Shown: positions 13,341 to 28,351 of the stretch, piece after piece
How the letters are laid out: the number at the start of each line of letters is the position of its first letter
Position numbering within the stretch: position 1 is the stretch's first letter
Assembly: GCA_947475525.1 (NCBI GenBank)
Contig: CANJMI010000008.1
Location: 124,001 to 188,000 of the forward strand
Reading direction: 5' to 3'
Source of the DNA: Polyangiaceae bacterium
GTDB taxonomy: Bacteria; Myxococcota_A; Polyangia; Polyangiales; Polyangiaceae
Length of the DNA stretch: 64,000 nt
The notes under the pieces: generated by a model
Told to the model about the DNA's origin: nothing
The model's input: the letters and a program-made list of their open reading frames with translations, nothing else
The model's database searches: none
Translations under genes and position numbers: made by a program

Positions 13341-14174
13341 TCAGCGACCGAGGAGCTGCAACGCGAGCTGCGGCGCCTGATTCGCTTGAGACAGGACGGA
13401 AGCGCCTGCCTGGAGAAGCACCTGGGAGCGCGCCATCTGCGAGGTCTCTTCCGCGACGTCGACGTCACGGATCGCGCTGTTCGCGGCCTCGAGGTTCGTG
13501 CGTATCGCTTGGGAATTCGTGATCGCAACTTGCAGGCGATTGACGACCGCGCCGAATTGCGCCCGAGAGTTCAACACCGAAGTTATCGCTCCATCGAGGG
13601 AGTCGATGGCGCTCGATGCGTTCGTAGCGCTCGAGCCGCCGACGCTCACGCCGCTCAGCCCGAGAGAGGAGACCGAGATGCCCCCGAAGCCCAAGGAGAT
13701 CGTGTCGTTCGAAGTCGTGTTGATGCCGACCTGGAAAGCGATCGAAAGCGCGCTTCCGCCGAGCAAGGTCGTGCCGTTGAAGTTGGTCGAGTTCGCGAGG
13801 CGATCGATCTCGTCCTTCAACTGCTGAAATTCGGTGTCGATGTAGCCTCGGTCGGTCGAGGAGAGATCGCCGTTGGCGGCCTGCACGCTCAGCTCTCGCA
13901 TGCGGATGACGACGTCGCTTATCTGACCGAGTCCGCCCTCGGCCGTGTTCGCCATACCCACCGCGTTGCGGGTATTGCGCTCGGCGACGGAGAAACTTCG
14001 GATCTGGGAGCGAAGGTTTTCGCTCACGGCGAGGCCCGCGGCATCGTCGGCGGCAGCGTTGATTCGAAACCCGCTCGAGAGCCGGGTGTAGCTCGTCTGG
14101 AGCCTCATCTGCACCGCGCCGAGAGAGCGCTGCGCCTGCAACGAGGCGATGTTCGTATTGATAATTAAAGGCAT
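13341..14174 (-). CDS. fliC: Flagellin 1
   Basis: A 277-residue flagellin consisting only of the conserved D0/D1 domains. The N-terminal part reads MPLIINTNIASLQAQ, then RLSSGFRINAAADDAAGLAVSE. The C-terminal part reads AANSAIRDVDVAEETSQMAR, ending QAPQLALQLLGR. The centre is a short Ser/Gly/Thr-rich stretch, so the surface-exposed D2/D3 domains are absent. It is exported by the flagellar type III apparatus and forms the filament. No other filament assembly gene (fliS, fliD, hooks) is adjacent. A GGGAG element 12 bases before the ATG is a plausible ribosome site. A paralogue of the same length lies about 700 bp upstream. Confidence 0.97.
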   Translation of the reverse strand: MPLIINTNIASLQAQRSLGAVQMRLQTSYTRLSSGFRINAAADDAAGLAVSENLRSQIRSFSVAERNTRNAVGMANTAEGGLGQISDVVIRMRELSVQAANGDLSSTDRGYIDTEFQQLKDEIDRLANSTNFNGTTLLGGSALSIAFQVGINTTSNDTISLGFGGISVSSLGLSGVSVGGSSATNASSAIDSLDGAITSVLNSRAQFGAVVNRLQVAITNSQAIRTNLEAANSAIRDVDVAEETSQMARSQVLLQAGASVLSQANQAPQLALQLLGR

Positions 14175-14877: not shown

Positions 14878-15711
14878 TCAGCGCTGGATGAGCTGCATCG
14901 CGAGCTGCGGGGCCTGGTTCGCTTGCGACAAGACGGAAGCGCCCGCTTGGAGCAGCACCTGGGAGCGCGCAAGCTGCGAGGTCTCCTCCGCCACGTCGAC
15001 GTCGCGGATCGCGCTATTCGCGGCCGAGAGGTTCGTGCGGATGACCTGCGTATTGGTGACGGCCATCTGCAGTCGGTTGGTCGCAGCGCCGAAGCGCGCG
15101 CGGACGGTGGAGACGTTTTGCAGCGCCGCGTCGAGTGCGTCGATAGCGAGCACCGCGCTCGACGCGGCCGAACCCTCGACTCCGATGCCACTCAGGCCGA
15201 GCGAAGAGACGGATACACCTCCGAACGCGAGGCTGATCACGTCGTTCGACGTCGTGCCGATGCCGACCTGAAAGTCGATCGAGGTCGCGCTGCCGCCAAG
15301 AAGATTCGCACCGTTGAACTCGGTGGAGTTGGCGAGGCGATCGATCTCGTCCTTCAGCGACTGAAATTCGGTGTCCAGGTAGCCGCGGTCGGTCGACGTA
15401 AGGTCACCGTTGGCGCTCTGCACAGCCAACTCGCGCATGCGAATGACGATGCTGCTGACCTGAGCGAGTCCACCTTCCGCAACATTCGCCATGCTGATGG
15501 CGTTGTTGGTGTTCCGCTCTGCAACAGTAAAGCTGCGAATTTTCGCGCGTAGGCCCTCGCTGATGCCGAGTCCTGCTGCGTCATCGGCCGCGCTGTTGAT
15601 GCGGTAACCGCTGGAAAGCCGGAGAAAGGATTTTTGGACGGATTGCTGGCTGACTTCGAGAGCGTTCTGCGCACGCAGAGACGCGACGTTTGTATTGACG
15701 ATGAGTGACAT
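14878..15711 (-). CDS. fliC: Flagellin 2
   Basis: A second 277-residue flagellin. It shares the D0/D1 layout of flagellin 1: MSLIVNTNVASLRAQNALE and RLSSGYRINSAADDAAGLGI at the N-terminus, and AANSAIRDVDVAEETSQLAR at the C-terminus. The short centre is diverged (SSVVRARFGA-like segments). Identical length and near-identical ends indicate tandem duplication. A strong ribosome site, AGAGGGAG, lies about 10 bases before the ATG and is contained in a small hairpin. The gene is divergent from a two-component pair, so the 174-bp spacer 15712-15885 should hold both promoters. Confidence 0.97.
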   Translation of the reverse strand: MSLIVNTNVASLRAQNALEVSQQSVQKSFLRLSSGYRINSAADDAAGLGISEGLRAKIRSFTVAERNTNNAISMANVAEGGLAQVSSIVIRMRELAVQSANGDLTSTDRGYLDTEFQSLKDEIDRLANSTEFNGANLLGGSATSIDFQVGIGTTSNDVISLAFGGVSVSSLGLSGIGVEGSAASSAVLAIDALDAALQNVSTVRARFGAATNRLQMAVTNTQVIRTNLSAANSAIRDVDVAEETSQLARSQVLLQAGASVLSQANQAPQLAMQLIQR

Positions 15712-16851: not shown

Positions 16852-17534
16852 GCACCCCAGCTCAAGAGCCCGCCCGCATCCTCGTCGTCGAGGACGACCC
16901 CTCCATCCAGCTCGGCCTGCGCATGGCCCTCGCGAACGAAGGCTACGCGGTCACGACCGCGGACGACGGGGCCGTCGCCCTCGAGCGCATCAAAGAGACA
17001 CCGTGGGACCTTGTGATTCTCGACATCATGTTGCCGCGCCTGAACGGCTACGAGCTCCTCACCGAGCTCAAGGTGCTCGGCATCAGTGTGCCCGTCATGG
17101 TGCTCTCGGCCCGCAGCGCCGATTGGGACAAGGTCACCGGCCTCGATCTCGGAGCTGAGGACTACCTGAGCAAACCGTTCAGCGTGCCCGAACTCATGGC
17201 CCGCGTGCGTGCCGTGCTCAGACGACGGCGATCCACGCCGATGGCGACGTTCGGCGAGATCGAGATCGACCCGCAACGCCGCGAGGTGCGCCGCAACGGG
17301 GAGGCGATCGACCTCACGGCGACCGAATTCAACATTCTCTGGGCGCTCGCCCGGGTTCGAGGAGAGCCGCTCTCGCGAGAGCGCATTTTCCAGGCCGTGT
17401 GGGGCCCACAGCACCACGGCACCTACCGCACGATTGATAATTTCGTCGCGCAGCTACGTAGCAAGCTCGAGCGGGATCCCGCAGCTCCGCAGCACCTCGT
17501 GACCGTGCGCGGCATCGGCTATCGCCTCGAGTAG
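16848..17534 (+). CDS. OmpR/PhoB-family response regulator
   Basis: A 228-residue transcription factor. The receiver (about 10-120) has the acidic pair in VVEDDPS, phospho-acceptor D59 in LVILDIMLP, and the switch Lys in YLSKPFS. It is followed by a winged-helix domain (about 130-225) ending VRGIGYRLE. It overlaps the preceding kinase by 4 bp, so kinase and regulator are translationally coupled and form a cognate pair. The target genes are not apparent; the divergent flagellin 2 promoter is the nearest possible target (inference only). Confidence 0.95.
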   Translation: MSTPAQEPARILVVEDDPSIQLGLRMALANEGYAVTTADDGAVALERIKETPWDLVILDIMLPRLNGYELLTELKVLGISVPVMVLSARSADWDKVTGLDLGAEDYLSKPFSVPELMARVRAVLRRRRSTPMATFGEIEIDPQRREVRRNGEAIDLTATEFNILWALARVRGEPLSRERIFQAVWGPQHHGTYRTIDNFVAQLRSKLERDPAAPQHLVTVRGIGYRLE

Positions 17535-17601
17535 GACTGCGCGGGGGAGGAGCCAAGCAGCGGTCACGTGCCACGCGGCGTTCGGGCCCCTCGTCACCAA
17601 C

Positions 17602-18264
17602 TCACGGAGCGCGGTAGCTGCCGACGAGCGCCAAGAGCTTCGCCTTCGTTTCGGCCGCAGCGTCGCCGTTCTTCTGGGCGAACATCGCGACGAGGTAGTC
17701 AGCCGGCGTGCACACGATCAACGTCGCGAGCGACGCCGATTCTCCGGGACTCCCCGTGCCATGAGTCGAGGCGCTGTAAAGAGCCCGGCGGCCTTCGAGT
17801 TCGAGCTTCTCTACGGACTTCATGCGACGGAACTTCAGACGCTCGGGGTCGGTATCCGTCTCCGCCGCTTTCAGCTTCAGCCACTCGCGTTCGAGCACCG
17901 CCTCGCATCCTTCACCGGCGAGCGAAAATTCATTCAGCATCAATCGCGACTCGTCCGAAAACTTCCAGACCCGTGCCCTTTTTACCTCGGGGGGCAGCTC
18001 GGACGGCGCGGTCGCGAGGTCAGCGCCGGCGGGGAGCTTCAGCGTCGCGCCGCTGAGGAGGACCACGGTGCTGCTGGTGGCGGCGAGCGCCACCTTGGGG
18101 GATTCGGGCGCTGAAACGGAGCTGCCACGCGGCGCAGAGAATGCCGCGGTATTCGGCGGCGCGTCCTTCGGCGTGTGCTCATCCGGGGCGCGCTCGGAAC
18201 GCACCGGAGTGTTGCAACCGAGGAGAACGCTAGCCAAAACGAGCACCATCCGCATGGCGCGCAT
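17602..18264 (-). CDS. Hypothetical lipoprotein
   Basis: A 220-residue protein with a short signal peptide and lipobox VLLGC (Cys about 17), then an Ala/Pro/Ser-rich linker to about residue 80. A compact domain follows that reads like a small alpha/beta sensor (ARVWKFSDESRLMLNEF, then ALYSASTHGTGSP and TLIVCTPADYLVAMFA). Two cysteines (in EGCEAV and VCTPA) could form a disulfide. No family is recognised. It is convergent with the response regulator gene and about 40 bp downstream of the LOG gene on the same strand. Confidence 0.75.
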   Translation of the reverse strand: MRAMRMVLVLASVLLGCNTPVRSERAPDEHTPKDAPPNTAAFSAPRGSSVSAPESPKVALAATSSTVVLLSGATLKLPAGADLATAPSELPPEVKRARVWKFSDESRLMLNEFSLAGEGCEAVLEREWLKLKAAETDTDPERLKFRRMKSVEKLELEGRRALYSASTHGTGSPGESASLATLIVCTPADYLVAMFAQKNGDAAAETKAKLLALVGSYRAP

Positions 18265-18303
18265 CCTTCACCACGACGTCCGCGCTGTCCACGGCCGAGA
18301 CGC

Positions 18304-18903
18304 TCAGCGAGCAACGCGCGCGAGGTCGTCGAAGCTCGGTAGCGCGCACGTCGCGAGGAGGTCGAGCAACTCGCTCGGTTCGCTCGCCTGCTGCAAGAGC
18401 CCCCGGTGAGCGGGCCGAATGAAGGCCTCGTCCGCCGCGTTCGTGAGGAACCCAAGCAGCGAATCGTAGAACCCGTGAGCGTTCAAAAGGCCTACGGGTT
18501 TTACGTGGTAACCGAGCTGGGTCCACGTGGTCGCCTCGAAAATTTCCTCGAGCGTTCCCCAGCCGCCAGGCAATGCGACGAACGCGTCCGAGAGTTCGGC
18601 CATGCGGGACTTGCGCTCGTGCATCGTCCGCACGACCTCGAGTTCCGTCACGCCGCGATGCCCAAGCTCGAGCTCGAAGAGTTTCGAAGGGATGACACCG
18701 TAGACCTTGGCCCCGGCCGCGAGCGCCGCATCCGCGACCGCCCCCATCAAGCCGACGTGCCCACCCCCGAAGACGACGTCGATGCCGCGCGCCGCGAGAA
18801 CACGACCCATCTCCCGAGCGCATTCGAGCCAGCGGTCCGCAACCTGGTTGCTCGAGCCGCAGTACACGCAAACTCGTTGAAACTTCCTTGGGGCGACGCT
18901 CAT
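18304..18903 (-). CDS. LOG family protein (nucleotide 5'-monophosphate phosphoribohydrolase-like)
   Basis: A 199-residue Rossmann-fold protein with both LOG signatures: GGGHVGLMG (about 47-55) and PGGWGTLEE (about 112-120), together with the family's opening VCVYCGSS. LOG enzymes cleave the N-glycosidic bond of nucleoside monophosphates such as AMP or cytokinin riboside monophosphates; in bacteria the physiological substrate is often unknown. It starts 4 bp from the stop of the outer-membrane-like gene and is probably co-transcribed with it. Confidence 0.9.
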   Translation of the reverse strand: MSVAPRKFQRVCVYCGSSNQVADRWLECAREMGRVLAARGIDVVFGGGHVGLMGAVADAALAAGAKVYGVIPSKLFELELGHRGVTELEVVRTMHERKSRMAELSDAFVALPGGWGTLEEIFEATTWTQLGYHVKPVGLLNAHGFYDSLLGFLTNAADEAFIRPAHRGLLQQASEPSELLDLLATCALPSFDDLARVAR

Positions 18904-18906
18904 GCG

Positions 18907-20394
18907 TTAGAAGAAATACCGCATGTCGAACTGCGCCGCGAACACGAACGCCCGCGGGTCGGTCGCGGCGTGTTGCATCGATCGGACGAGGTCTTGCAGG
19001 AAGCTCACGCCTGCCAGCCAGCCGAGCATCAGGTCGCGGCGACCGGTGTAGTAGAGCCCCCAGTTCATGCGGTGGCTCAACGCGCTGACTTTGGTCGCAT
19101 CGGTGAGCCCGAGAGTCGCGTTCGTGTCGTAGGAGCTCTTATTGAGCTCGACGCGGTACTCGTAGGTCAGGCCAACCGGCAAGAGTGGGTAGAAGTTCAA
19201 GGACGGAGAGATACCGGCGTAAAAACTCGTCTCGCTCGAGCCGAGTTTGGTCGTCGCGCCGCCGCCGAGTGGAAGCGTGACGTCGGTGGATGCGCTCTCG
19301 ACACCGACCGCGAGTTGGCCGCCGGCGTAACGACCGAGCGCTTGGGCATACGCGAGAGCGGCGCCACCACCGAACCGCTTGCGCGACGCCGTGATGTCAG
19401 TCCCGACATCGGGCGTGGGGAGACATTCGAAATTCGCCTGAATCAGGCAGTCCGCTAACGCCGCAGGGTCCTGCGTTGCCGCTTTAATCTGATTGCTGAT
19501 GTCGATGAGCAAGCCGAGCGGCATCGCGCGAATGCCAGCCTGGAAAGTCCCGAAGCCACGCAATGCAAGCTGGCTGCCCGTTGCGTCACTCCGAAAGATG
19601 CGAAGTTTCGCGTTCGGGCGCACGTCGAATCCTCCGGAGCCGCCCCACGTGAAGAGCGTCTGGCCGTTCGTGCCGACCTCGGCGAGGTAATCGGCGTCAA
19701 CGCCAAACGAGAGGTACTCCGAGGCCCGCAGGTCCGCCCCGTAGTTGAGCTTGACGAAGGTGATGTCGCGATCGAACGTGATGGTGTCGGTCGTGCCTGT
19801 GGTCGTAGGCACGCGCGCCGTAACGCCAGGCTGATGGTAGAATTCGACGCTCGAACCTACGTAAAAGCTCGCCGCGACGAACGCGTTCTCGAAAAGGCGT
19901 GGATACAGAAACGTGTGGCCGAGCAGCGTGCGGTCGCCGGCGAATTCACTCTCGCCGTGCACCATTCCCGGGGAGGGGCCGGCTGCGCCCGGTGCCTCCG
20001 CTTCGTCGTCAGAGGTGTCGCCCTCGGCAGCGGGCTCGGGGTTTTCCGCAAGCGTTGGCTGCGCGTCGGGGGCCGTCGGCGAGGGCGGCGCATCGACCGA
20101 GATGACGGGCTTGGGCGGTGCGGTCTCGAGGGCAGGAGCGCCAGCGGCCGAGAGAGCCCACTGAACGCATCGCCCAGCGGCATCCGAAAGCACGCATGGG
20201 TTCGCTTGGGCCACAGGCACCGCAAGGACTGGAGGCGACGAGGGCAGCGGCGCAACGGGCGCGGCGGATGCCGGTGGAGGCGCGGCGGACGCCGGTGGAG
20301 GCGCGGCCGACGAAGGTACTTGCGCGGACGCGGGGAGCGCCCAGCACGTGATGCTGAAGAAGCCGAGCAACGCTGGATTCAATTCAAGTTTCAT
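18907..20394 (-). CDS. Secreted outer-membrane beta-barrel-like protein with Pro/Ala-rich linker
   Basis: A 495-residue protein from ATG 20394. A signal peptide ends at LPASAQ, followed by repeated APPPASA units and an acidic, Pro/Ala-rich linker (to about 160). The C-terminal half alternates polar and hydrophobic residues with many aromatic residues and ends in MRYFF, a terminal Phe typical of outer-membrane barrels. A Cys-containing segment (ADCLIQANFECLPTP) may form a disulfide. No named family is recognised. An upstream in-frame ATG at 20436 would lengthen the signal peptide unnaturally. Confidence 0.78.
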   Translation of the reverse strand: MKLELNPALLGFFSITCWALPASAQVPSSAAPPPASAAPPPASAAPVAPLPSSPPVLAVPVAQANPCVLSDAAGRCVQWALSAAGAPALETAPPKPVISVDAPPSPTAPDAQPTLAENPEPAAEGDTSDDEAEAPGAAGPSPGMVHGESEFAGDRTLLGHTFLYPRLFENAFVAASFYVGSSVEFYHQPGVTARVPTTTGTTDTITFDRDITFVKLNYGADLRASEYLSFGVDADYLAEVGTNGQTLFTWGGSGGFDVRPNAKLRIFRSDATGSQLALRGFGTFQAGIRAMPLGLLIDISNQIKAATQDPAALADCLIQANFECLPTPDVGTDITASRKRFGGGAALAYAQALGRYAGGQLAVGVESASTDVTLPLGGGATTKLGSSETSFYAGISPSLNFYPLLPVGLTYEYRVELNKSSYDTNATLGLTDATKVSALSHRMNWGLYYTGRRDLMLGWLAGVSFLQDLVRSMQHAATDPRAFVFAAQFDMRYFF

Positions 20395-20496
20395 CGGGCT
20401 GCGCTCCCTCAGCGTCGCTGCGTACACCATCCGCACGCTGTCCGGCGAAGATGGCCTCGCACTTCGAGAAAACGCTGCCTGAGCCCCGCCTGACGT

Positions 20497-22662
20497 TCAC
20501 GGCTTCGCCACGAGGGTCACGTCGTTCAGCGCGCGGCACGTGATTCCGTAGGGCTTTCCGTCGCTGAGCCAGCGCGGCGAATCGGTCAGCTTTGCTCGAA
20601 CGCCTACACGAAGAAACAGCGATTTTTCACACGACACGACGAGCGGTTGTTCAACTTTGCCGAGCGCGTTGGCGAAAAAGAAGACCTCAGCGCTCGGATC
20701 GCCCGCAAAGTGAACGACGAGCAACCCCTGTTTGGCGGTCAGCGTCGCGGGATCGATCCCTGGCGCGGACGCGCTCATGGCAGCGGATGCGCTTGTCGCA
20801 GGCGATTCGGTCGAAGGCGCGGACGCGCTCGCAGCCGCGGTGCTACTCGGGCTCGGAACGGAAGTCGTCGAAGGCGCGGCGGGCACAGTGTCGCTCGCCG
20901 CTGGCGCATCGAGGTCACTGACCTCGGGAGGACGGGGAAGCTGCTGTTGGCGCGTCATCCACCATGCACCAACACCGAAAACGAGCCCCGCCGTACCGAG
21001 CGCGAGCGCGAACGCTTTGGCAACCGACAGCGGCTTCGCTGCCACTTCTTTCGCGGTGCTGAGAGCCGGCCGCGCCTCGCTAGCCGGCCGCTCCTCGAGC
21101 GACTGCCGCGCCTCGCTAGCCTGCGGCGCCTCGAACGGCGGCCCGCCGGAAATCGCGGATTCGGCAACCGCGGCGGCCGCGCGAACCGACGACGGGCCGG
21201 GCAGCTCGGCGGCTCGAACCGAGTCCAGACTCGGCGGTGGCTCGTCGCTCGTGCGGGACGGTTGAGTCGACGCGACGCGGGCATCGGATTCGGGAGCTTT
21301 GAGGTCGTCCAGCAGGGCCGAATCCAGCGCGGAGGCGAGCTCGTCGGTAGACGCCTTTCCCCAAGAAAGCTCTTCGTCAATCGGCATCGCCGGGCGCGAC
21401 GGGCGCAATTCAGGCGCGATAGACGGCAGTCGAGGACGCGAAGCCGTCTGAGGGGGCGTCGAACCCAACCTTGGGCGTGGGGGCGCCAGGACGGGTGCCC
21501 CTGCGCTTGAGACTGGAGGCGAAGGATCCGTGGAGTCGGCAGCCGCGCCTGAGGAGGAACCGAGCTTCGCGCGGGCAGGAGGCAGTCGGCTCCCGAGCGG
21601 CGAACCTGCGCGCACCGGAGAAGCCGTCACGCTCGCAGGCAGTGGCGTGCCGAGACGCGGCGTGGCAACTGCCCCGGGCGGCGTGGCAACTGCCCCGGGC
21701 AGCGTGGCTACTGCCCCGGGCAGCGCAGCACGCGGGGTGAGGACAGGCTTCGGCGCCGGAGCGGCAGGAGGTTGAGTCACAGCCGCCGAGGAGGCGCTCA
21801 CCGAAGGCGAAGAGGCCGGTAGCGGAGCGCGCGCCGTGCCGAGCATCGTCGTGCCCTTGCGAAGGACGAGAAGCGCCGCAGCGAGCTCCTTTTTGCCAGC
21901 GTCGAGGCTGGCCGCCGCGAAGGCCTGCTCGAGTTCCGTGACGTTCAGCGTACGTTTGCCGAGCGCCGGTTCAACGGCCTTAAGCAAAATGCCGCGAAGC
22001 GCGGCCGGCACGCGGTCATCGAGCTCCGCGGCCGAAGGTGACAGCGGCGGGGCATCACCGGTGAGCAGCGCCCAAACGATCGCGCCGAGCGAATACAAGT
22101 CACCGCGCGGGGTCGGCTTTCCAGCGCGCCGCCGCTCCGGAGCATCGTAGCCGGCCGAACCTCGTAGCCCGGGCGAGTCGGCTACTGCAGCGAGGCCGAG
22201 GCCATCGAGAGATACCGAGCCATCCCAGCCGAGCCAAACCCACTCCGGCGACAGAAATCCGTGACAAATCGTTATGAGTTCATCATCGACCGAAGCGTAG
22301 TTCGTGGCGGCAAGCGCGCTCGCGAGTTCTTTTGCGACATGCCAAATCGCGGCGGTGGCGAGGGGACGCCCGGACTGTTGCTGCCGCACGAAGAGCTGCT
22401 CCAACGTCGCGCCGTCGCGCTCGGGAACCGCGAAGCCGAGATCCTCTCCGGCGGCGAAAGCTTCGGCCGGACCAATGGCCGGATGGCCAAGCGCGACGCA
22501 AATGCCGACCTCTTTGACCGCGCGCTCGATGGCCTCCGGAGCCACGGGGCCAATGACCCGCACCAAACACGACTCCACTCCCGGAGCATGCGCCAAGTAC
22601 GCCGGCAGCGCGCCCGGAAGGGACCGAATGACCTCGTAGCGCCCGATTCGTTGCGTCAACAT
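20497..22662 (-). CDS. Membrane-anchored pseudokinase (degenerate Ser/Thr kinase)
   Basis: A 721-residue protein whose first about 260 residues follow the order of a Hanks kinase (RYEVI opening, GSAGYDAPERR for the APE region, DLYSLGAIVWALLTG). Every catalytic motif is lost: the glycine loop is SLPGALPAYL, the ATP Lys is R35, the HRD loop is CHGFLSPEWVWL (133-144) and DFG is replaced by DGLG (153-156). A long Ala/Pro/Ser linker (about 270-545) includes a 21-bp repeat. One transmembrane helix lies at about 548-570, and a periplasmic domain of about 90 residues has two cysteines (VVSCEKS, GITCRA). It probably binds partners without phosphorylating them. Confidence 0.85.
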   Translation of the reverse strand: MLTQRIGRYEVIRSLPGALPAYLAHAPGVESCLVRVIGPVAPEAIERAVKEVGICVALGHPAIGPAEAFAAGEDLGFAVPERDGATLEQLFVRQQQSGRPLATAAIWHVAKELASALAATNYASVDDELITICHGFLSPEWVWLGWDGSVSLDGLGLAAVADSPGLRGSAGYDAPERRRAGKPTPRGDLYSLGAIVWALLTGDAPPLSPSAAELDDRVPAALRGILLKAVEPALGKRTLNVTELEQAFAAASLDAGKKELAAALLVLRKGTTMLGTARAPLPASSPSVSASSAAVTQPPAAPAPKPVLTPRAALPGAVATLPGAVATPPGAVATPRLGTPLPASVTASPVRAGSPLGSRLPPARAKLGSSSGAAADSTDPSPPVSSAGAPVLAPPRPRLGSTPPQTASRPRLPSIAPELRPSRPAMPIDEELSWGKASTDELASALDSALLDDLKAPESDARVASTQPSRTSDEPPPSLDSVRAAELPGPSSVRAAAAVAESAISGGPPFEAPQASEARQSLEERPASEARPALSTAKEVAAKPLSVAKAFALALGTAGLVFGVGAWWMTRQQQLPRPPEVSDLDAPAASDTVPAAPSTTSVPSPSSTAAASASAPSTESPATSASAAMSASAPGIDPATLTAKQGLLVVHFAGDPSAEVFFFANALGKVEQPLVVSCEKSLFLRVGVRAKLTDSPRWLSDGKPYGITCRALNDVTLVAKP
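21661..21723 (-). repeat. Three 21-bp tandem repeats in the pseudokinase linker
   Basis: Three consecutive units (CGTGGCAACTGCCCCGGGC plus two bases, with two or three substitutions between copies) at 21661-21681, 21682-21702 and 21703-21723. In frame they encode repeats of the type PGAVATP in the disordered linker, so changes in copy number would only alter linker length. Confidence 0.9.
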
Positions 22663-22717
22663 CCGCCGCCCGCGAGGGTCGCACAGTCACACCACAATCG
22701 CCACGACAACCGATGAC

Positions 22718-23083
22718 TCAGTAACGAACAGCCCCAGGCTCGACCATCGACGGCGGTAGCGGCCCGGCTTCGGCGCTCGGCGGAGGAGGCGGCGGCTTCA
22801 GCTCGACACCTTCATTCTCGACCGCGGCGAAGGGGGCCGCGATGACCGGCGGCGGAAGGAAAGGACGCGGCGCCGTCAGGCCTGCCGCGACGGCGGACAA
22901 CTCTGGATACGTCACCGCAAGCTGGGCCACGTAAGCGCGTCGATGGGCCTCGCTCGGTGGTTCGCACCCGACCCCGCCCTGCCGCAGCGCGTCGCTCATT
23001 TGATAAAACCACGCCGAGAGCGAGGCGTAAGCCTCAATCAACTCCCGCACGGTGTCGTCCCCCACGATGACCGTTTTTGCCAC
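22718..23083 (-). CDS. Hypothetical protein with helical N-terminus and Pro-rich tail
   Basis: A 121-residue protein. Residues 1-65 are helical (TVRELIEAYASLSAWFYQMS, with two Cys/Gly turns), and the tail is Pro-rich (LKPPPPPPSAEAG). No signal peptide and no known family are seen. It lies between the pseudokinase gene (same strand, about 55 bp further on) and the divergent endonuclease/phosphatase-fold gene. Coding potential is supported by its length, clean ATG and sensible composition rather than by homology. Confidence 0.6.
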   Translation of the reverse strand: MAKTVIVGDDTVRELIEAYASLSAWFYQMSDALRQGGVGCEPPSEAHRRAYVAQLAVTYPELSAVAAGLTAPRPFLPPPVIAAPFAAVENEGVELKPPPPPPSAEAGPLPPSMVEPGAVRY

Positions 23084-23107
23084 GGCGCGATGCTACCATG
23101 GACACCC

Positions 23108-24067
23108 ATGCGGTCGCTCCGGCTGATGACCTACAACGTGCGCTACTTCGGGCACGGCACGGGCGGCCTCGTCTCGACACGGACCGACCTGCGGAGCATC
23201 GCAGACGCCATCGCCGCGATGACCCCACTCTGCGACGTCATCGCACTCCAGGAAATCGAGGACCATTCGCTGCGCTCGGCGCTGGTGACGTGGCACCCGA
23301 CCAAGGTCAAACAACAGCTCACTGAGTGGATGACCGACCTCGCGCGCGCTCTCGAACGTCGCGGCATCGCCGAGGCCTACGACGCGCACTATTTCCCCGC
23401 GCACCGCTACGCTCTCACGAAGACGACCCACCTCTACACGACTGGCCTGGCCGTGCTCGTCGGACCACGCCTCGAAGTCGTATCCGACACTCAGGGCCGC
23501 ATCGAAGACATCACCCATCGACGCGGCGCAAAATCGCTCAAACAGACGCGAATTTGCGCACATTTGACCCTCCGCTTGCGTGACGGGCACCGCGTCACCA
23601 AAGGTGAGAACGCGACCGGTGACCTCGACGTCTTCAACACCCACCTGAGCCTCCCCGGTCCGTTTTACCGCGAGTTCTGGTCCGGTGCGCAACGCCTAGG
23701 CTTCGGTCCGAACCAACTGCAGGAAGCGCAGCGGTTGGCGCGCGCCATCGAACGACGTCGACGCTCCCCGCGAGTGGTGTTGATGGGCGACTTCAACTCG
23801 CTGCCGGGCTCCCAGGTCGATCGCTTGCTTCAGACCGAACTCGGGCTCGTCGATGCCCTCGCGACCAGCAACGACTTCGACGAGACGCAACGGGCCGCAT
23901 GGCCCACGGCGGGCTTTTTCGGCATGCGCATGGCGATCGATCGCATCTACGCATCGCCCGGTATCGTGTGGGCGGACTTCGATGGCAGCGCGCCTTTCGA
24001 GAGTCACTCGCCGTTCCACGGACTCAGCGACCACGTCCCGATCGTCGGCCGCCTGCACCTCGCATGA
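23108..24067 (+). CDS. Endonuclease/exonuclease/phosphatase-fold protein
   Basis: A 319-residue member of the EEP superfamily, metal-dependent phosphodiesterases. Motifs in order are LMTYNVRYFG (Asn), IALQEIED (metal-binding Glu), FNTHLS, MGDFNSLPG (Asp/Asn), and LSDHVPIVG (catalytic Asp-His). Substrate could be nucleic acid, phosphoinositide or sphingomyelin; the sequence does not decide. The start is set at ATG 23108 because the first conserved strand begins at once; ATG 23090 and longer forms overlap the divergent gene. Convergent with the TPR lipoprotein. Confidence 0.88.
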   Translation: MRSLRLMTYNVRYFGHGTGGLVSTRTDLRSIADAIAAMTPLCDVIALQEIEDHSLRSALVTWHPTKVKQQLTEWMTDLARALERRGIAEAYDAHYFPAHRYALTKTTHLYTTGLAVLVGPRLEVVSDTQGRIEDITHRRGAKSLKQTRICAHLTLRLRDGHRVTKGENATGDLDVFNTHLSLPGPFYREFWSGAQRLGFGPNQLQEAQRLARAIERRRRSPRVVLMGDFNSLPGSQVDRLLQTELGLVDALATSNDFDETQRAAWPTAGFFGMRMAIDRIYASPGIVWADFDGSAPFESHSPFHGLSDHVPIVGRLHLA

Positions 24068-24085
24068 ACGGCGAAACCGCACCCA

Positions 24086-25486
24086 TCACGGCTTCGGCTC
24101 GGGCAAGCCCGTCGCGATCTTCGCCGCGAGCTCGGGCTTTCCACATGCGCGATACGCCGCAATCCGCTGCACGCGCAACGCCGTCGTCGCGTAGGGGAAC
24201 GTGCCGGCGTCGTCGGCAAGCTTGCACGCGCCTTTCGCGTCACCGGAGGCCACGAGCGCCTCGAGGTAGAGCTCGTAGGACTCCGCCGTCTTGCGGTTGT
24301 CGATGTTGATTTTGGCCGCTTCGGTTGCTTTTTTTGGATCTTTTGTCGCGTGAAGATGGAACTCGGCCGCGTGGTCGGAGAACGCGAGCGGGTACTTCGC
24401 CATCAGCTCGTCGTAGCCTTTGCTCGCGCGGGCGAGGTGCTCGCTTCCGCTCCCCGGTGCGAGCGCGTCGTTGATCAGGAACAACGCGGACGAGACCTCG
24501 GGGTCATCCGACGTCGGGAGGACCTTCTCGACCAATGGTTTACCGCGGGCAGGCGGAAGGAGCTCGCTCAGGTGAATGGTCGCGCGGGCGAATATCGGCA
24601 AACGCTCGACGGCGATACCGTAGAGCGCGCGGGCACGGTCGGGATCACCGGCGCGATCCCACATCTCGGCGCGGTTGAAATAAAGCCAGGATATCGCGAA
24701 CGGCGATACGTCGCGGTAGGTCGCTTCCGCCGCGAGAAAATCCGCCTCGGACGCGGCGGTTTTGCCCATGTGGCCGAGGCAAACGGCGTGCAGGGCGAGG
24801 GTGGACAAATTCGGAAAACGCTTCACTTCGGCAGCAAAAACCGGCTCCGCGTCATCGTAGCGACCGAGCGCCATCGCGACCACGGCACGCTTCGGCGCCA
24901 CGTCGAAGTCCTCTGCGCCGAACTTCGCAGCCGTATCGAGGTCGGCGAGCGCGCCTTTGAAATCATGAATCGCCCCACGTACGGAGCTGCGCAGGAGAAA
25001 GGCCTTCGCGTCTTTTGGATTCAACTTCGTGGCTTGCTCGGCAAGCTCGATCGCACGTCCGAGCGCGCTCATCTGACCGAAGTAGGTCACCTTGTCGAGG
25101 TATGCAGACACCGCGCTCGTCAGGAACATGAGCTTGTCCGGCTCGGCTTTCACCAGCCGCTCGAGCTGCTCGACTTGCGCGCTGAAGTTCTCGAGAGCGA
25201 TGCTAGGCGAGGTCGTCGCGTCGGGCTGCTTAATCCCGTTCGGAAGCGCGGCAAGAGCGGCCGACGAGGCCGAGGGGTGCGTCGAGTGCCCCGGTTGCGC
25301 GGACGAATCGAGCGCGGCAGCCGACGTCGAGGCCTGCGGCGTACGCTCACTCGCAGACGGCGCCTTCGATGCGCTTTCACAGCCACAAACGAGCACCGCC
25401 AGCCCAACCGCGAAGGTCAAGCTGGCGGAGCCGCAGGTCAACCGACGGAAGGCCCGAAGGCCGAACGGCTGACCTGCTTGGTTCAC
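24086..25486 (-). CDS. TPR-repeat lipoprotein
   Basis: A 466-residue protein with a signal sequence and lipobox LVCGC (Cys about 36), an Ala/Ser-rich linker, then helix-turn-helix repeats with the TPR spacing (AIELAEQATKLNPKDAKAF and ALADLDTAAKFGAEDFDV are the clearest, and FPNLSTLALHAVC-like units follow). Such proteins are protein-interaction scaffolds, here anchored in the periplasm. It ends convergently with the EEP gene and starts 4 bp from the stop of the DUF4331-like pair, so the three minus-strand genes may be one transcript. Confidence 0.82.
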   Translation of the reverse strand: MNQAGQPFGLRAFRRLTCGSASLTFAVGLAVLVCGCESASKAPSASERTPQASTSAAALDSSAQPGHSTHPSASSAALAALPNGIKQPDATTSPSIALENFSAQVEQLERLVKAEPDKLMFLTSAVSAYLDKVTYFGQMSALGRAIELAEQATKLNPKDAKAFLLRSSVRGAIHDFKGALADLDTAAKFGAEDFDVAPKRAVVAMALGRYDDAEPVFAAEVKRFPNLSTLALHAVCLGHMGKTAASEADFLAAEATYRDVSPFAISWLYFNRAEMWDRAGDPDRARALYGIAVERLPIFARATIHLSELLPPARGKPLVEKVLPTSDDPEVSSALFLINDALAPGSGSEHLARASKGYDELMAKYPLAFSDHAAEFHLHATKDPKKATEAAKINIDNRKTAESYELYLEALVASGDAKGACKLADDAGTFPYATTALRVQRIAAYRACGKPELAAKIATGLPEPKP

Positions 25487-25490
25487 AGGT

Positions 25491-26279
25491 TCACTTCTTC
25501 GCGGCGAAGTAAGGGAAGCCCGCTTCGTAGGCGGTCTTGGTCGCCGGATCGACCGGGATGGTGTCGCCGAACAGGAACGGATTCATGGGGAGCTTGCTGA
25601 AATCGAACGCGCCCGCCAGGATCGAGTAGCTCTCGTCGATGACGTCATCCGTCGGGATGCGGCCGCCGCAGAGGTCGTTGGTGACCATGAGAGCGTTGGC
25701 TTCCACCGCGAGGTAGAGACCGCAGCCGCCCTTGGCAGTCAGCTTGACCCAGAGGCGGTCATTCGCGAGCACGCCGGCGAGGAAATCGTACGCGCCGGAA
25801 GTCTGCTTGCCGCCCGCGGCGATTTGGTTGCCGCAACCCGCCATGGAGGCCATGGCGTTATCCGGCTTGTCGAGCGCGTCGAGCACCGCGAGCGAACCCG
25901 CGATGTCCGCCGTGTACTTGGCAGCCCAGCCGTCGGCCACGCCGTCAGCGTTGTAGGCGTCTTCAGCTGCGTCGCGCATGGCCTTGTTGAAGGTCTTGCT
26001 TCCGACGGTGTTGATCGCCGGTCGACCCATGCGGTCGATCTGCAGGCCGAGCTTCGGCGCTGCGGGGTACTCCGGCCCCATGCCACCGGCGCCGCCTGCG
26101 GCGGAGGTCGTGGTGGAACCACCGGCGCCGCCCGCGCCGCCTGCGGCGGACGTCGTGGTCGTCGTGATCGTCGTGGTCGTGGTCGATGCCGTTTCCGTGG
26201 TGTCATCACCGCCGCAAGCGGCGATCAGGGCACCTACAGAGAGAACGGCGACTGCACTAAGTTTCATTTTTGTATTCAT
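25491..26279 (-). CDS. DUF4331-like lipoprotein, C-terminal half
   Basis: A 262-residue lipoprotein (lipobox LIAAC, Cys about 22) with a Thr/Ala/Gly-rich linker to about residue 75. The rest resembles the second half of DUF4331 proteins: LQIDRMGRPAINTV, then GGRIPTDDVIDES and a closing FPYFA, which correspond to the family's R-x-G-x-P-x-N, G-R-x-x-D-D-V-x-D and F-P-Y-L elements. Three Cys residues (SMAGCG, GGCG, DLCGG) may be paired. It is 12 bp downstream of the gene holding the first half. Confidence 0.72.
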   Translation of the reverse strand: MNTKMKLSAVAVLSVGALIAACGGDDTTETASTTTTTITTTTTSAAGGAGGAGGSTTTSAAGGAGGMGPEYPAAPKLGLQIDRMGRPAINTVGSKTFNKAMRDAAEDAYNADGVADGWAAKYTADIAGSLAVLDALDKPDNAMASMAGCGNQIAAGGKQTSGAYDFLAGVLANDRLWVKLTAKGGCGLYLAVEANALMVTNDLCGGRIPTDDVIDESYSILAGAFDFSKLPMNPFLFGDTIPVDPATKTAYEAGFPYFAAKK

Positions 26280-26291
26280 GGTCGTCTCCGT

Positions 26292-26984
26292 TCACTGGCC
26301 AATTTTGTTGGTGCTGCCCCAAACGGCGACATATGCGCCGGTTCCGGCGAAACCCGGGTCGACTTCGGCGACCAGAACCAACTGGTTCAGCGTCGCGAAG
26401 TTGTTCACGGCACCCATCGTGAGCTGGCCCTGCAGCGCGGTCACGGTCCCGGCGTTGAGCTTCGGGCAGCCCGATGCGTAGGCCGTCAAACCAGCCGCGG
26501 CGTCCTGCACGGTTTTGATCGCCGTGTTCAAGCCGGCGAGGAAGAAGAAGAACGGATCCTGATGCAGGCCCGCGTGGACCTTGAGCTTGCCGCTCTCGCT
26601 GGTCATCGCCGTCGAAGGATCACCCTTGACGTAGTCGACGACCTGGCCGTCCCCTCCAACAACCCAGCACTCCGCCGACGTCGCGGTCGCGACCTTGCAG
26701 GTCACCATGCCGTGCTTGCCCTTGGCCGGAGCCTCGAGCGGCGCCTCGTGGCCGTCGATGTGGAACGTGTAGAGGGCCGCATCGCTCAGCGCTGCCGGGG
26801 CCATAAGGCCACCGACCGACATCGCGACGACGAGCTTGCCGTCTTTCGTCCAAGTGAAGACATCGTTGATGTCGGTGCTCGCATCCGTCTTTACGGCCGG
26901 ACCGTCCGTGTGATCGGCCGCGACGGCCGTGCTAGCAACTAGTGCCAGCGACGCGGCGCCAGCCAATTTCATCCAATTACGCAT
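26292..26984 (-). CDS. DUF4331-like secreted protein, N-terminal half
   Basis: A 230-residue protein with a signal peptide ending at VAADHTDGP. The mature start (ADHTDGPAVKTDASTDINDVF) matches the opening of DUF4331, and AGLHQDPFFFFLAGL matches its D-P-F-F-F motif. The family is exported, but its function is unknown. It ends where the central part of a full-length member would continue, and the next gene supplies the expected C-terminal part, so the pair looks like a split gene. Possible partner contact is inferred from gene order. Confidence 0.7.
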   Translation of the reverse strand: MRNWMKLAGAASLALVASTAVAADHTDGPAVKTDASTDINDVFTWTKDGKLVVAMSVGGLMAPAALSDAALYTFHIDGHEAPLEAPAKGKHGMVTCKVATATSAECWVVGGDGQVVDYVKGDPSTAMTSESGKLKVHAGLHQDPFFFFLAGLNTAIKTVQDAAAGLTAYASGCPKLNAGTVTALQGQLTMGAVNNFATLNQLVLVAEVDPGFAGTGAYVAVWGSTNKIGQ

Positions 26985-27163
26985 ACTGAGTCTCCTTAGC
27001 GTGAGGCCGGAAGATGTTCCCCCCCGGCTAACATGTCGAAAAAAGTGGCTTAAGATAGCACGCTCGAGGCGCAGGTCCAGAGGTTCGCGCGTTAATTCCC
27101 AGAAGCGGCTGAATTACGGTCGCCCATCGACCGCTGCGGCGAGAGGCGGTAAAGAACGGCGCC

Positions 27164-28351
27164 ATGTTCGAGCAAGCCCGCGCGCATTACTCCGCCGTCC
27201 TCGACGAAATCCGCGGCGCCGGCCTCTTCAAGAGGGAGCGGGTTATCACGAGTCCGCAAGGCGCCACGATAAGCACGCAGGGTCGCGAAGTCCTGAATTT
27301 CTGCGCGAACAACTACCTCGGCCTCTCATCGCACCCGGCGGTAATCGACGGGGCCCGACGCGCGCTTGAAACCCACGGCTTTGGCATGTCGAGCGTGCGG
27401 TTCATCTGCGGCACCCAAGACCTCCACAAGGAACTCGAGGCGACCATTAGCCGGTACTTCGGGACCGACGACACAATTCTCTACAGCTCGTGCTTCGACG
27501 CGAACGGCGGGCTCTTCGAAACACTCCTCGGCGAGGAAGACGCCATCCTCAGTGACGCGTTGAACCACGCGTCGATTATCGACGGGATTCGCCTGTGCAA
27601 GGCTGAACGCCACCGCTACCCGAACGGGGACATGGCCGCCCTCGAAGCCGCGCTGCAGGCCACCCAGGGCAAGCGCGTCCGCATGATCGCAACCGACGGC
27701 GTATTCTCGATGGACGGCACGCTCGCGAACCTCGGGGCCGTGTGTGATCTCGCGGAAAAATACAGCGCGCTCGTGATGGTCGACGACTCGCACGCAACGG
27801 GCTTCGTTGGGCCGACGGGCCGCGGCAGCGCCGACCATTGCGGTGTCCTCGGGCGCGTGGACATCATCACCTCGACCCTCGGCAAAGCCCTCGGCGGCGG
27901 CAGCGGCGGCTTCACGAGCGGACGGCGCGAGCTCGTCGAGGTTCTCCGCCAGCGCTCGCGGCCCTACCTCTTTAGCAACACCTTGCCGCCACCCATCGTC
28001 GGTGCCTCCCTTGCGGTCTTCGAGCTCCTCGACAAAGACGACGGCCCTCGCAAGCGCGTGATGGCGAACGCCGCGCAATTCCGCGACGGCGTGACGCGCG
28101 CGGGTTTCACCATCACCGAGGGGATCCACCCGATTGTTCCTGTGATGATCGGCGATGCCCGCCAAGCGACCGAGCTTGCGGACCGCTTGCTCACCAAGGG
28201 AATTTACGTCATCGGATTCTCATTCCCGGTCGTGCCCCGCGGCGCCGCACGGGTGCGCGTCCAGCTGAGCGCGGCCCACACCGAAAGCGACGTGACTCGG
28301 GCGATCGTGGCCTTCACCGAAGCCGGACGCGAGCTCGCTCTCATCACCTGA
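27164..28351 (+). CDS. kbl: Glycine C-acetyltransferase (2-amino-3-ketobutyrate CoA ligase)
   Basis: A 395-residue PLP enzyme of the alpha-oxoamine synthase family. It converts 2-amino-3-ketobutyrate and CoA to glycine and acetyl-CoA, the second step of threonine breakdown. Motifs are [37 protein letters not shown] (PLP-contacting Asp and His), and the Schiff-base Lys in [10 protein letters not shown]. Length is normal for Kbl, and the [10 protein letters not shown] segment is typical. Threonine dehydrogenase is not adjacent. The short 8-amino-7-oxononanoate synthase is a less likely alternative. Confidence 0.93.

Follow-up and report, generated by a model that had tools for sequence, protein, structure and literature searches.

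A probable membrane scaffold at the degraded end of a myxobacterial pseudokinase family

Introduction

What does a kinase-like membrane protein do once its catalytic residues have been replaced, and in which order were they lost? The window, a stretch of 64,000 nucleotides of a Polyangiaceae genome, carries one such gene, which the earlier note described as a pseudokinase that had lost every motif at once and had been selected as a non-catalytic scaffold. The reading favored here, with a probability of about 0.74, is that of a non-catalytic and probably nucleotide-independent membrane scaffold, from a family of bitopic pseudokinases of the inner membrane in which it has degraded furthest. Pseudokinases of bacteria have been described as largely unexplored (PMC12599244). 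A literature search, made at the level of titles and abstract openings and with subscription papers mostly outside its scope, retrieved no earlier description of the family.

The gene and its parts, all on the (−) strand, are as follows.

20497..22662 (−): pseudokinase gene, 721 amino acids, ATG start at 22662; orthologous sequence in 5/5 genus genomes
21847..22662 (−): cytoplasmic pseudokinase domain, residues 1–272 (AlphaFold2 and VIA-align)
22585..22623 (−): glycine loop, degraded and shortened, residues 14–26 (alignments)
22558..22560 (−): beta3 Lys position, here Arg35; invariant Arg in the four aligned genus members
22240..22263 (−): catalytic loop HGFLSPEW in place of HRDxxPxN, residues 134–141 (alignments)
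22195..22203 (−): DFG position, here Gly-Leu-Gly, residues 154–156 (alignments)
21049..21846 (−): linker rich in Pro, Ala, and Ser, residues 273–538, presumably disordered (sequence and model confidence)
21283..21432 (−): conserved island of the linker, residues 411–460, with the acidic amphipathic stretch SWGKASTDELASALDSALLDDL (identity and dN/dS against G004; similar motif in G003)
20968..21024 (−): single transmembrane helix, residues 547–565 (best window of a hydropathy scan)
20500..20757 (−): PEGA-like beta domain, putatively periplasmic, residues 636–721, with Cys678 and Cys709 (AlphaFold2; invariant Cys)

Results and Discussion

A Kinase Fold with Replaced Motifs

The AlphaFold2 model of residues 1–285, built from a 20-row alignment, predicts a bilobal kinase fold (pLDDT 90.8, pTM 0.88). 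By VIA-align it superposes on MAP2K6 (3vn9; Z 23.8, rmsd 3.1, 254 residues aligned) and on PknI of M. tuberculosis (5m07; Z 23.6, rmsd 3.1, 234 aligned), in agreement with the earlier note's statement that the kinase outline is kept. The match to the Pfam Pkinase family (PF00069) is weak, with 17 bits for the whole protein and 19.5 bits for the domain alone, and does not reach the cut-off of 31.7. A profile search of the kinase domain places CASK chains far down among 2622 matched sequences. MviN, EssB, and SelO are not among the best 50 structural matches listed for the model, an absence that is uninformative.

The alignments confirm that the glycine loop, the ATP-binding Lys, HRD, and DFG are all replaced. 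The three catalytic residues of an active Ser/Thr kinase have become Arg35 (beta3 Lys), Phe136 (HRD Asp), and Gly154 (DFG Asp); HRD reads H134-G135-F136, the Asn at HRD+5 is Trp141, and DFG reads G154-L155-G156. The glycine loop is about two residues and the activation loop about six residues shorter than in relatives. To judge from sequence and model, the protein meets the general definition of a pseudokinase, namely a kinase fold in which at least one of the three catalytic residues is missing. Several hallmarks are still present: the His of HRD (134), the helix-C Glu51, APE at 174–176, the F-helix Asp188, and Arg237. Glu51 is Glu in three of four genus members and Asp in G002. The CHGFLSP of the catalytic loop is invariant across the same four, and the loop varies freely in the remaining members of the clade described below. 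Asp153, one residue before the DFG position, is Glu in two of the four and is not conserved across the wider clade. Phosphotransfer by the window protein appears very unlikely on these motifs, and Mg-ATP binding unlikely. The motifs by themselves leave room for nucleotide binding, because STRAD, with a similar triad, binds ATP.

Beyond the kinase fold, model confidence is below 50 from residue 273 to the end of the modeled segment. The positive-inside rule suggests that the transmembrane helix is oriented with the N-terminus inside and the C-terminus outside, which would place the C-terminal domain in the periplasm. This domain is predicted with a pLDDT of 94.3 for residues 643–721, and all 15 C-terminal domains in the alignment share Cys678 and Cys709. 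The transmembrane helix and Cys-containing domain noticed earlier are both recovered. Pfam PEGA (PF08308) matches 8 of these 15 family members (best E 2.6e-5) and does not match the window copy at E 1. Searches of the PDB with the periplasmic domain gave nothing significant by Foldseek (best E 0.043) or by profile search (best E 0.64), and the best VIA hits, CBM20-like domains at Z 7.5, are within the range of unrelated models. A relation to the PpkA/RtkS-type pair of T6SS was considered and rejected, the periplasmic-domain match (9k1u_B, row 46, Z 6.6) being too weak.

Conservation and Selection

Orthologous sequence, whole or partial, occurs in each of the genus's five genomes, the window's own included. 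The copy of G004 is complete, that of G003 lies in two pieces at contig ends, that of G002 runs off its contig before the C-terminal domain, and G001 has the C-terminal domain only, at a contig edge. Against G004, the counting method gives dN/dS of 0.23 overall, 0.22 for the pseudokinase domain, 0.10 for the linker island (residues 411–460), and 0.07 for the periplasmic domain, values that are rough because dS is 1.2–2.1 and thus near saturation. Within the kinase domain, third codon positions have changed at 0.56, versus 0.26 and 0.20 for first and second positions. The linker island is 74% identical to that of G004, versus 38%–49% for the adjoining linker, and its motif SWGKAS-x-ELASALDSAL-x-DDL is kept in G004, with a similar stretch in G003. 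Substitution patterns of this kind indicate that the gene is in use and under purifying selection. The long intact frame reported before thus stands, with 721 residues open from the ATG, conserved, and with dN/dS of about 0.22.

Distribution of the Family

The family was sampled in 60 genomes of the GTDB family to which the window belongs (48 genera, drawn evenly) by a search with a seven-row profile, followed by a reading of the motifs. Members occur in 19 of the 60 genomes and 15 of the 48 genera (G000, G003, G004, G007, G017, G018, G019, G021, G022, G026, G027, G035, G041, G042, G044, G048, G050, G058, and G059). Three further member genomes (G068, G075, and G091) belong to a second family of the same order and were found among 96 genomes searched. 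The single window sequence found no relative in the genome contigs, and a four-row alignment retrieved 40 loci, three of them the genus orthologs (L069, L070, and L071) and the other 37 at no more than 31% identity. A class-wide search of 116 genomes at E 1e-70 matched only the window genome and G047; the G047 hit is a DFG-bearing kinase and not a member. As far as sampled, the family appears confined to one order of myxobacteria. The search for similar pseudokinases in related genomes, which the earlier note had proposed, thus yields a clade of 26 rows.

The C-terminal two-Cys domain lies in the same gene region in 19 of the 23 family rows of the first tree, in a few only in part; in G003 it is on a second contig, and L142 and L167 read it in another frame. 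The four rows without it (L066, L146, L154, and L169) are cut by a contig end. In G018 (L113/L142) and G091 (L167) the kinase and C-terminal domains are in different frames, by assembly error or true frameshift.

Order of Motif Losses

Maximum-likelihood trees were built without the columns of the glycine loop, VAIK, HRD, DFG, and activation loop. On a tree of 43 rows, the 23 family rows form one clade (support 100/98). A second tree, of 61 rows, adds 18 further matches of the profile search whose motifs had not been looked at beforehand, and here the family clade comprises 26 rows (support 99/99). The three added rows with a clear C-terminal domain (L309, L314, and L320) all lack the DFG Asp and all fall inside the clade; the remaining 15 lie outside it with the DFG Asp in place, among them L317, which has HGG for HRD.

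The DFG Asp is absent from all 26 clade rows and present in all 35 others, which amounts to a single change on both trees. The other motifs have changed more often: on the 43-row tree the fewest changes are four for the HRD Asp, four for the HRD+5 Asn, two for the beta3 Lys, one for the HRD Arg, and two for the helix-C Glu. On the 61-row tree the HRD Asp changes six times, one of these being L317. A single loss of the HRD Asp, imposed on the 43-row tree by forcing all 18 rows without this Asp into one clade, is rejected (p-AU 0.008, for a group that was named after the tree had been seen). How often HRD was lost can be given only approximately, because the branching order at the base of the clade is not resolved. 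Every one of the 61 rows keeps the F-helix Asp, and Arg237 is missing from a single, truncated row (60 of 61).

Within the clade, 6 of 26 rows still have the HRD Asp and 16 the beta3 Lys. The CASK-type combination, Lys and HRD Asp present and DFG Asp absent, is found in 6 of the 26, the window copy not being one of them. At the HRD site the genus of the window has HGF, and HRN, HRT, HRA, HRG, HGH, or HRD occur elsewhere; many relatives keep the Lys and a glycine loop of the GxGxxxxV type. The lineage of the window and its closest kin (G027, G044, and G048) show full motif loss, as does, separately, one branch within the second family (G068 and G091). By its motifs, the lineage of the window is the most degraded of the family.

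These sequence-based trees make the loss of the metal-binding DFG Asp the founding change, with the HRD Asp and the beta3 Lys lost later and separately. The claim that every motif was lost at once is therefore wrong, since the trees count one loss for the DFG Asp, several for the HRD Asp, and two for the beta3 Lys, and the beta3 Lys survives in relatives of the same layout, some of which have the whole HRD and only the change to GFG.

One tentative scenario, against which the odds still lie, joins these observations. Its first step would be a single loss of the DFG Asp, which left a CASK-like protein with Lys, HRD, and GFG; this form survives in several genera and may retain Mg-free ATP binding or even phosphotransfer. 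From there, repeated separate decay would have produced HRN, HRT, or HRA forms and, in the lineage of the window, a protein serving purely as a scaffold, its pocket occluded. Through all of this the periplasmic two-Cys domain and the linker motif would have served one unchanged receptor-like role, perhaps together with a GYF_2/transmembrane/periplasmic partner (see following).

The Kinome of the Genome

Lists of Pkinase matches in Pfam at E 0.001 hold 107 entries for this genome, the window protein not among them; profile-based kinome counts therefore miss such members. Of the 107 kinase regions, 96 have all three catalytic residues; the other 11 are each short of at least one, 4 of them of the whole triad, which is thus absent from 5 of 108 kinase-like proteins when the window protein is counted in. 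For M. xanthus, 99 such kinases are reported, of which 11 are pseudokinases (PMC6791715). A pseudokinase is thus not a rarity here, given 11 of 107 regions short of at least one catalytic residue and 11 of 99 in M. xanthus. A second degraded kinase of the genome, unrelated in appearance, is found at G000:C14:10258-11076 (L126, L300); it has VVHR, HGR, and no clear DFG, in an open frame of 794 residues.

What sets the present family apart is the series of graded intermediates, from GFG-only to fully degraded, within one conserved membrane-anchored layout. Because of these, natural proteins can serve to test directly in which order the residues went and at what stage nucleotide binding ceased. 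If the staged scenario above is true, the clade amounts to a natural experiment on the death of a bacterial kinase.

Comparison with Known Pseudokinases

Membrane pseudokinases with all motifs lost are already known, and it is the living intermediates that are unusual. EssB/YukC and MviN provide precedents for noncatalytic membrane pseudokinases, as described in PMC12599244, from which the comparisons with bacterial proteins in this section are drawn. MviN/ActPs3 resembles the window protein in the degradation of the three motifs, a deletion in the activation loop (here about six residues), and a transmembrane helix (PMC12599244). Bulky aromatic residues occupy the pocket of MviN (F724 and W789), which does not bind ATP (PMC12599244); F136 and W141 would be their counterparts here, matched by alignment position only. 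In contrast, ActPs3 occurs chiefly in actinobacteria and carries VALT, Lsidhpsr, and Y-- where LVRV, HGFLSPEW, and GLG stand here, and no PEGA-like Cys domain is described for MviN/ActPs3 in that text (PMC12599244).

EssB/YukC is likewise a membrane pseudokinase with the three motifs and the glycine and activation loops degraded, and it works as a recruiter and scaffold (PMC12599244). EssB belongs to the T7SSb of Firmicutes and has the motifs LDMR, Ytfvlapd, and TRG (PMC12599244), versus LVRV, HGFLSPEW, and GLG in the window protein. In a non-exhaustive comparison of the neighbors of the pseudokinase, no secretion genes were recognized. The GLW pseudokinases, mainly of Proteobacteria, share the transmembrane helix C-terminal to the kinase fold and the complete loss of functional motifs (PMC12599244). 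However, their defining features are a GLW where HRD would stand and poly-Leu with Leu/Trp at the beta3 Lys (PMC12599244), versus HGF and Arg35 in the window copy, whose GLG sits at the DFG position. By the features tested, the family belongs neither to ActPs3 nor to GLW.

Among eukaryotic proteins, CASK has the beta3 Lys, HRD, and GFG (PMC2639636); clade members G018, G019, G026, G050, and G075 have Lys, HRD, and GFG or GYG. VRK3, with HGN and GFG and no ATP binding (PMC2639636), resembles the later stage of the clade. CASK and VRK3 differ in architecture, and their likeness to the clade is limited to three motifs; the CASK-type clade members also have a partly degraded glycine loop, unlike CASK. 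STRAD is a eukaryotic protein without the architecture of the window protein, and its glycine loop is less degraded. It is experimentally inactive, with a triad (VTVR, HRS, and GLR) like that of the window protein, yet it binds ATP (PMC2639636).

Scaffold, Switch, Enzyme, or Relic

The conserved fold, the linker motif, the transmembrane helix, and the two-Cys periplasmic domain point, by analogy with EssB/YukC, to a membrane scaffold or adaptor. Such a protein would not phosphorylate, and Mg-ATP would probably stay unbound, given Phe and Trp at the positions of the catalytic Asp and Asn and the short glycine loop. The periplasmic domain would anchor the protein or sense at the envelope, and the kinase fold and linker motif may dock a cytoplasmic partner. 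Three features count against this reading: Glu51 is kept, Arg at beta3 is a conservative change, and Asp153 could be a displaced acid. A rival reading is a STRAD-like switch, in which ATP, perhaps without metal, would be bound unhydrolyzed and a partner would read the change of conformation. STRAD itself combines a change of beta3 K to R with a GLR-type loss of DFG and binds ATP (PMC2639636), Glu51 is present in three of four genus members, and many relatives have the Lys and the GxGxxxxV loop. Such a switch is nonetheless rather unlikely in the lineage of the window, which has a shortened glycine loop and Phe136 and Trp141 for the active-site Asp and Asn; MviN, with aromatics in its pocket, is without ATP binding (PMC12599244).

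Catalysis kept or gained, as an atypical kinase or by AMPylation or glutamylation as in SelO and SidJ, is very improbable. Other kinase folds without motifs did gain new chemistry (PMC12599244), and an invariant CHGFLSP in four genus members would fit an active site; yet neither HRD nor DFG has an acidic residue left in its place, residue 153 (Asp or Glu) is not conserved in the wider clade, and the catalytic loop is free to vary elsewhere in it. That the gene is a decaying pseudogene is scarcely credible. The low-identity linkers and the possible frameshifts in L142/L113 and L167, maybe assembly errors, are what could be said for it, against orthologous sequence in 5 of 5 genus genomes, open frames, a dN/dS of about 0.2 with a periplasmic domain even more constrained, and a transmembrane helix and C-terminal domain that are present wherever the frame is neither cut nor shifted. 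For the scaffold proposed in the earlier note, then, a noncatalytic role is the best inference, because the membrane-anchored pseudokinase is intact, conserved, and under purifying selection; the word scaffold itself is borrowed by analogy.

Gene Neighborhood and Candidate Partners

Two neighbors on the same strand flank the pseudokinase.

22718..23083 (−): small conserved ORF, about 121 amino acids, GTG start; upstream, 55 bp before the pseudokinase ATG; no Pfam match
18907..20436 (−): downstream gene for a probable outer-membrane beta-barrel protein, judged from its sequence; no Pfam or NCBIfam match

The small ORF adjoins the pseudokinase in the window, G004, G048, G027, G044, and G058, and the gene for the probable outer-membrane protein does so in the window, G001, G003, and G004. 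On the opposite strand, an endonuclease/exonuclease/phosphatase ORF whose start at 22943 overlaps the small ORF probably has its true start near 23100. In G004 this endonuclease/exonuclease/phosphatase gene is a 50-residue match (L063:6486-6635) between a TPR gene and the pseudokinase, and it is intact in G003. The kbl gene is directly beside the pseudokinase in G048 and G044 and lies at 27164–28351 in the window, a neighborhood that supports the orthology of the CHG-type members.

A candidate partner has a GYF_2 domain, a linker, a putative transmembrane helix, and a conserved, presumably periplasmic part, and is encoded next door to the pseudokinase in G017, G058, G048, and G027 (L195:4419-8027, L197:5002-7170, L201:4072-7035, and L207:11885-14758 in relatives). 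In the genus of the window it is encoded elsewhere, at G000:C26:21670-23703 in the same genome and with only the N-terminal part in G004. Scores of at least 330 bits for this protein are reached in 14 of 60 genomes, and the pseudokinase is present in 12 of these 14 versus 7 of the 46 others. The co-occurrence is a lead and not a test, since the cut was chosen after the scores had been seen and the genomes are related.

Directly after the pseudokinase, six relatives encode a repetitive protein very rich in Cys and Gly (L199:6924-8207, L203:6889-8229, L204:5906-7492, L205:9872-11158, L206:9129-11030, and L209:3624-4985). CEGKCDGKC repeats are found in the two copies that were read (L199 and L205), and the one copy scanned (L199) has no Pfam match. 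No sigma-70-like promoter was found in 17500–27200, and terminator-like sites there are near the number expected by chance. Two tandem flagellin genes lie near the locus (13341–14174 and 14878–15711, both (−)), and a flagellin gene is at the same place in G001 and G003.
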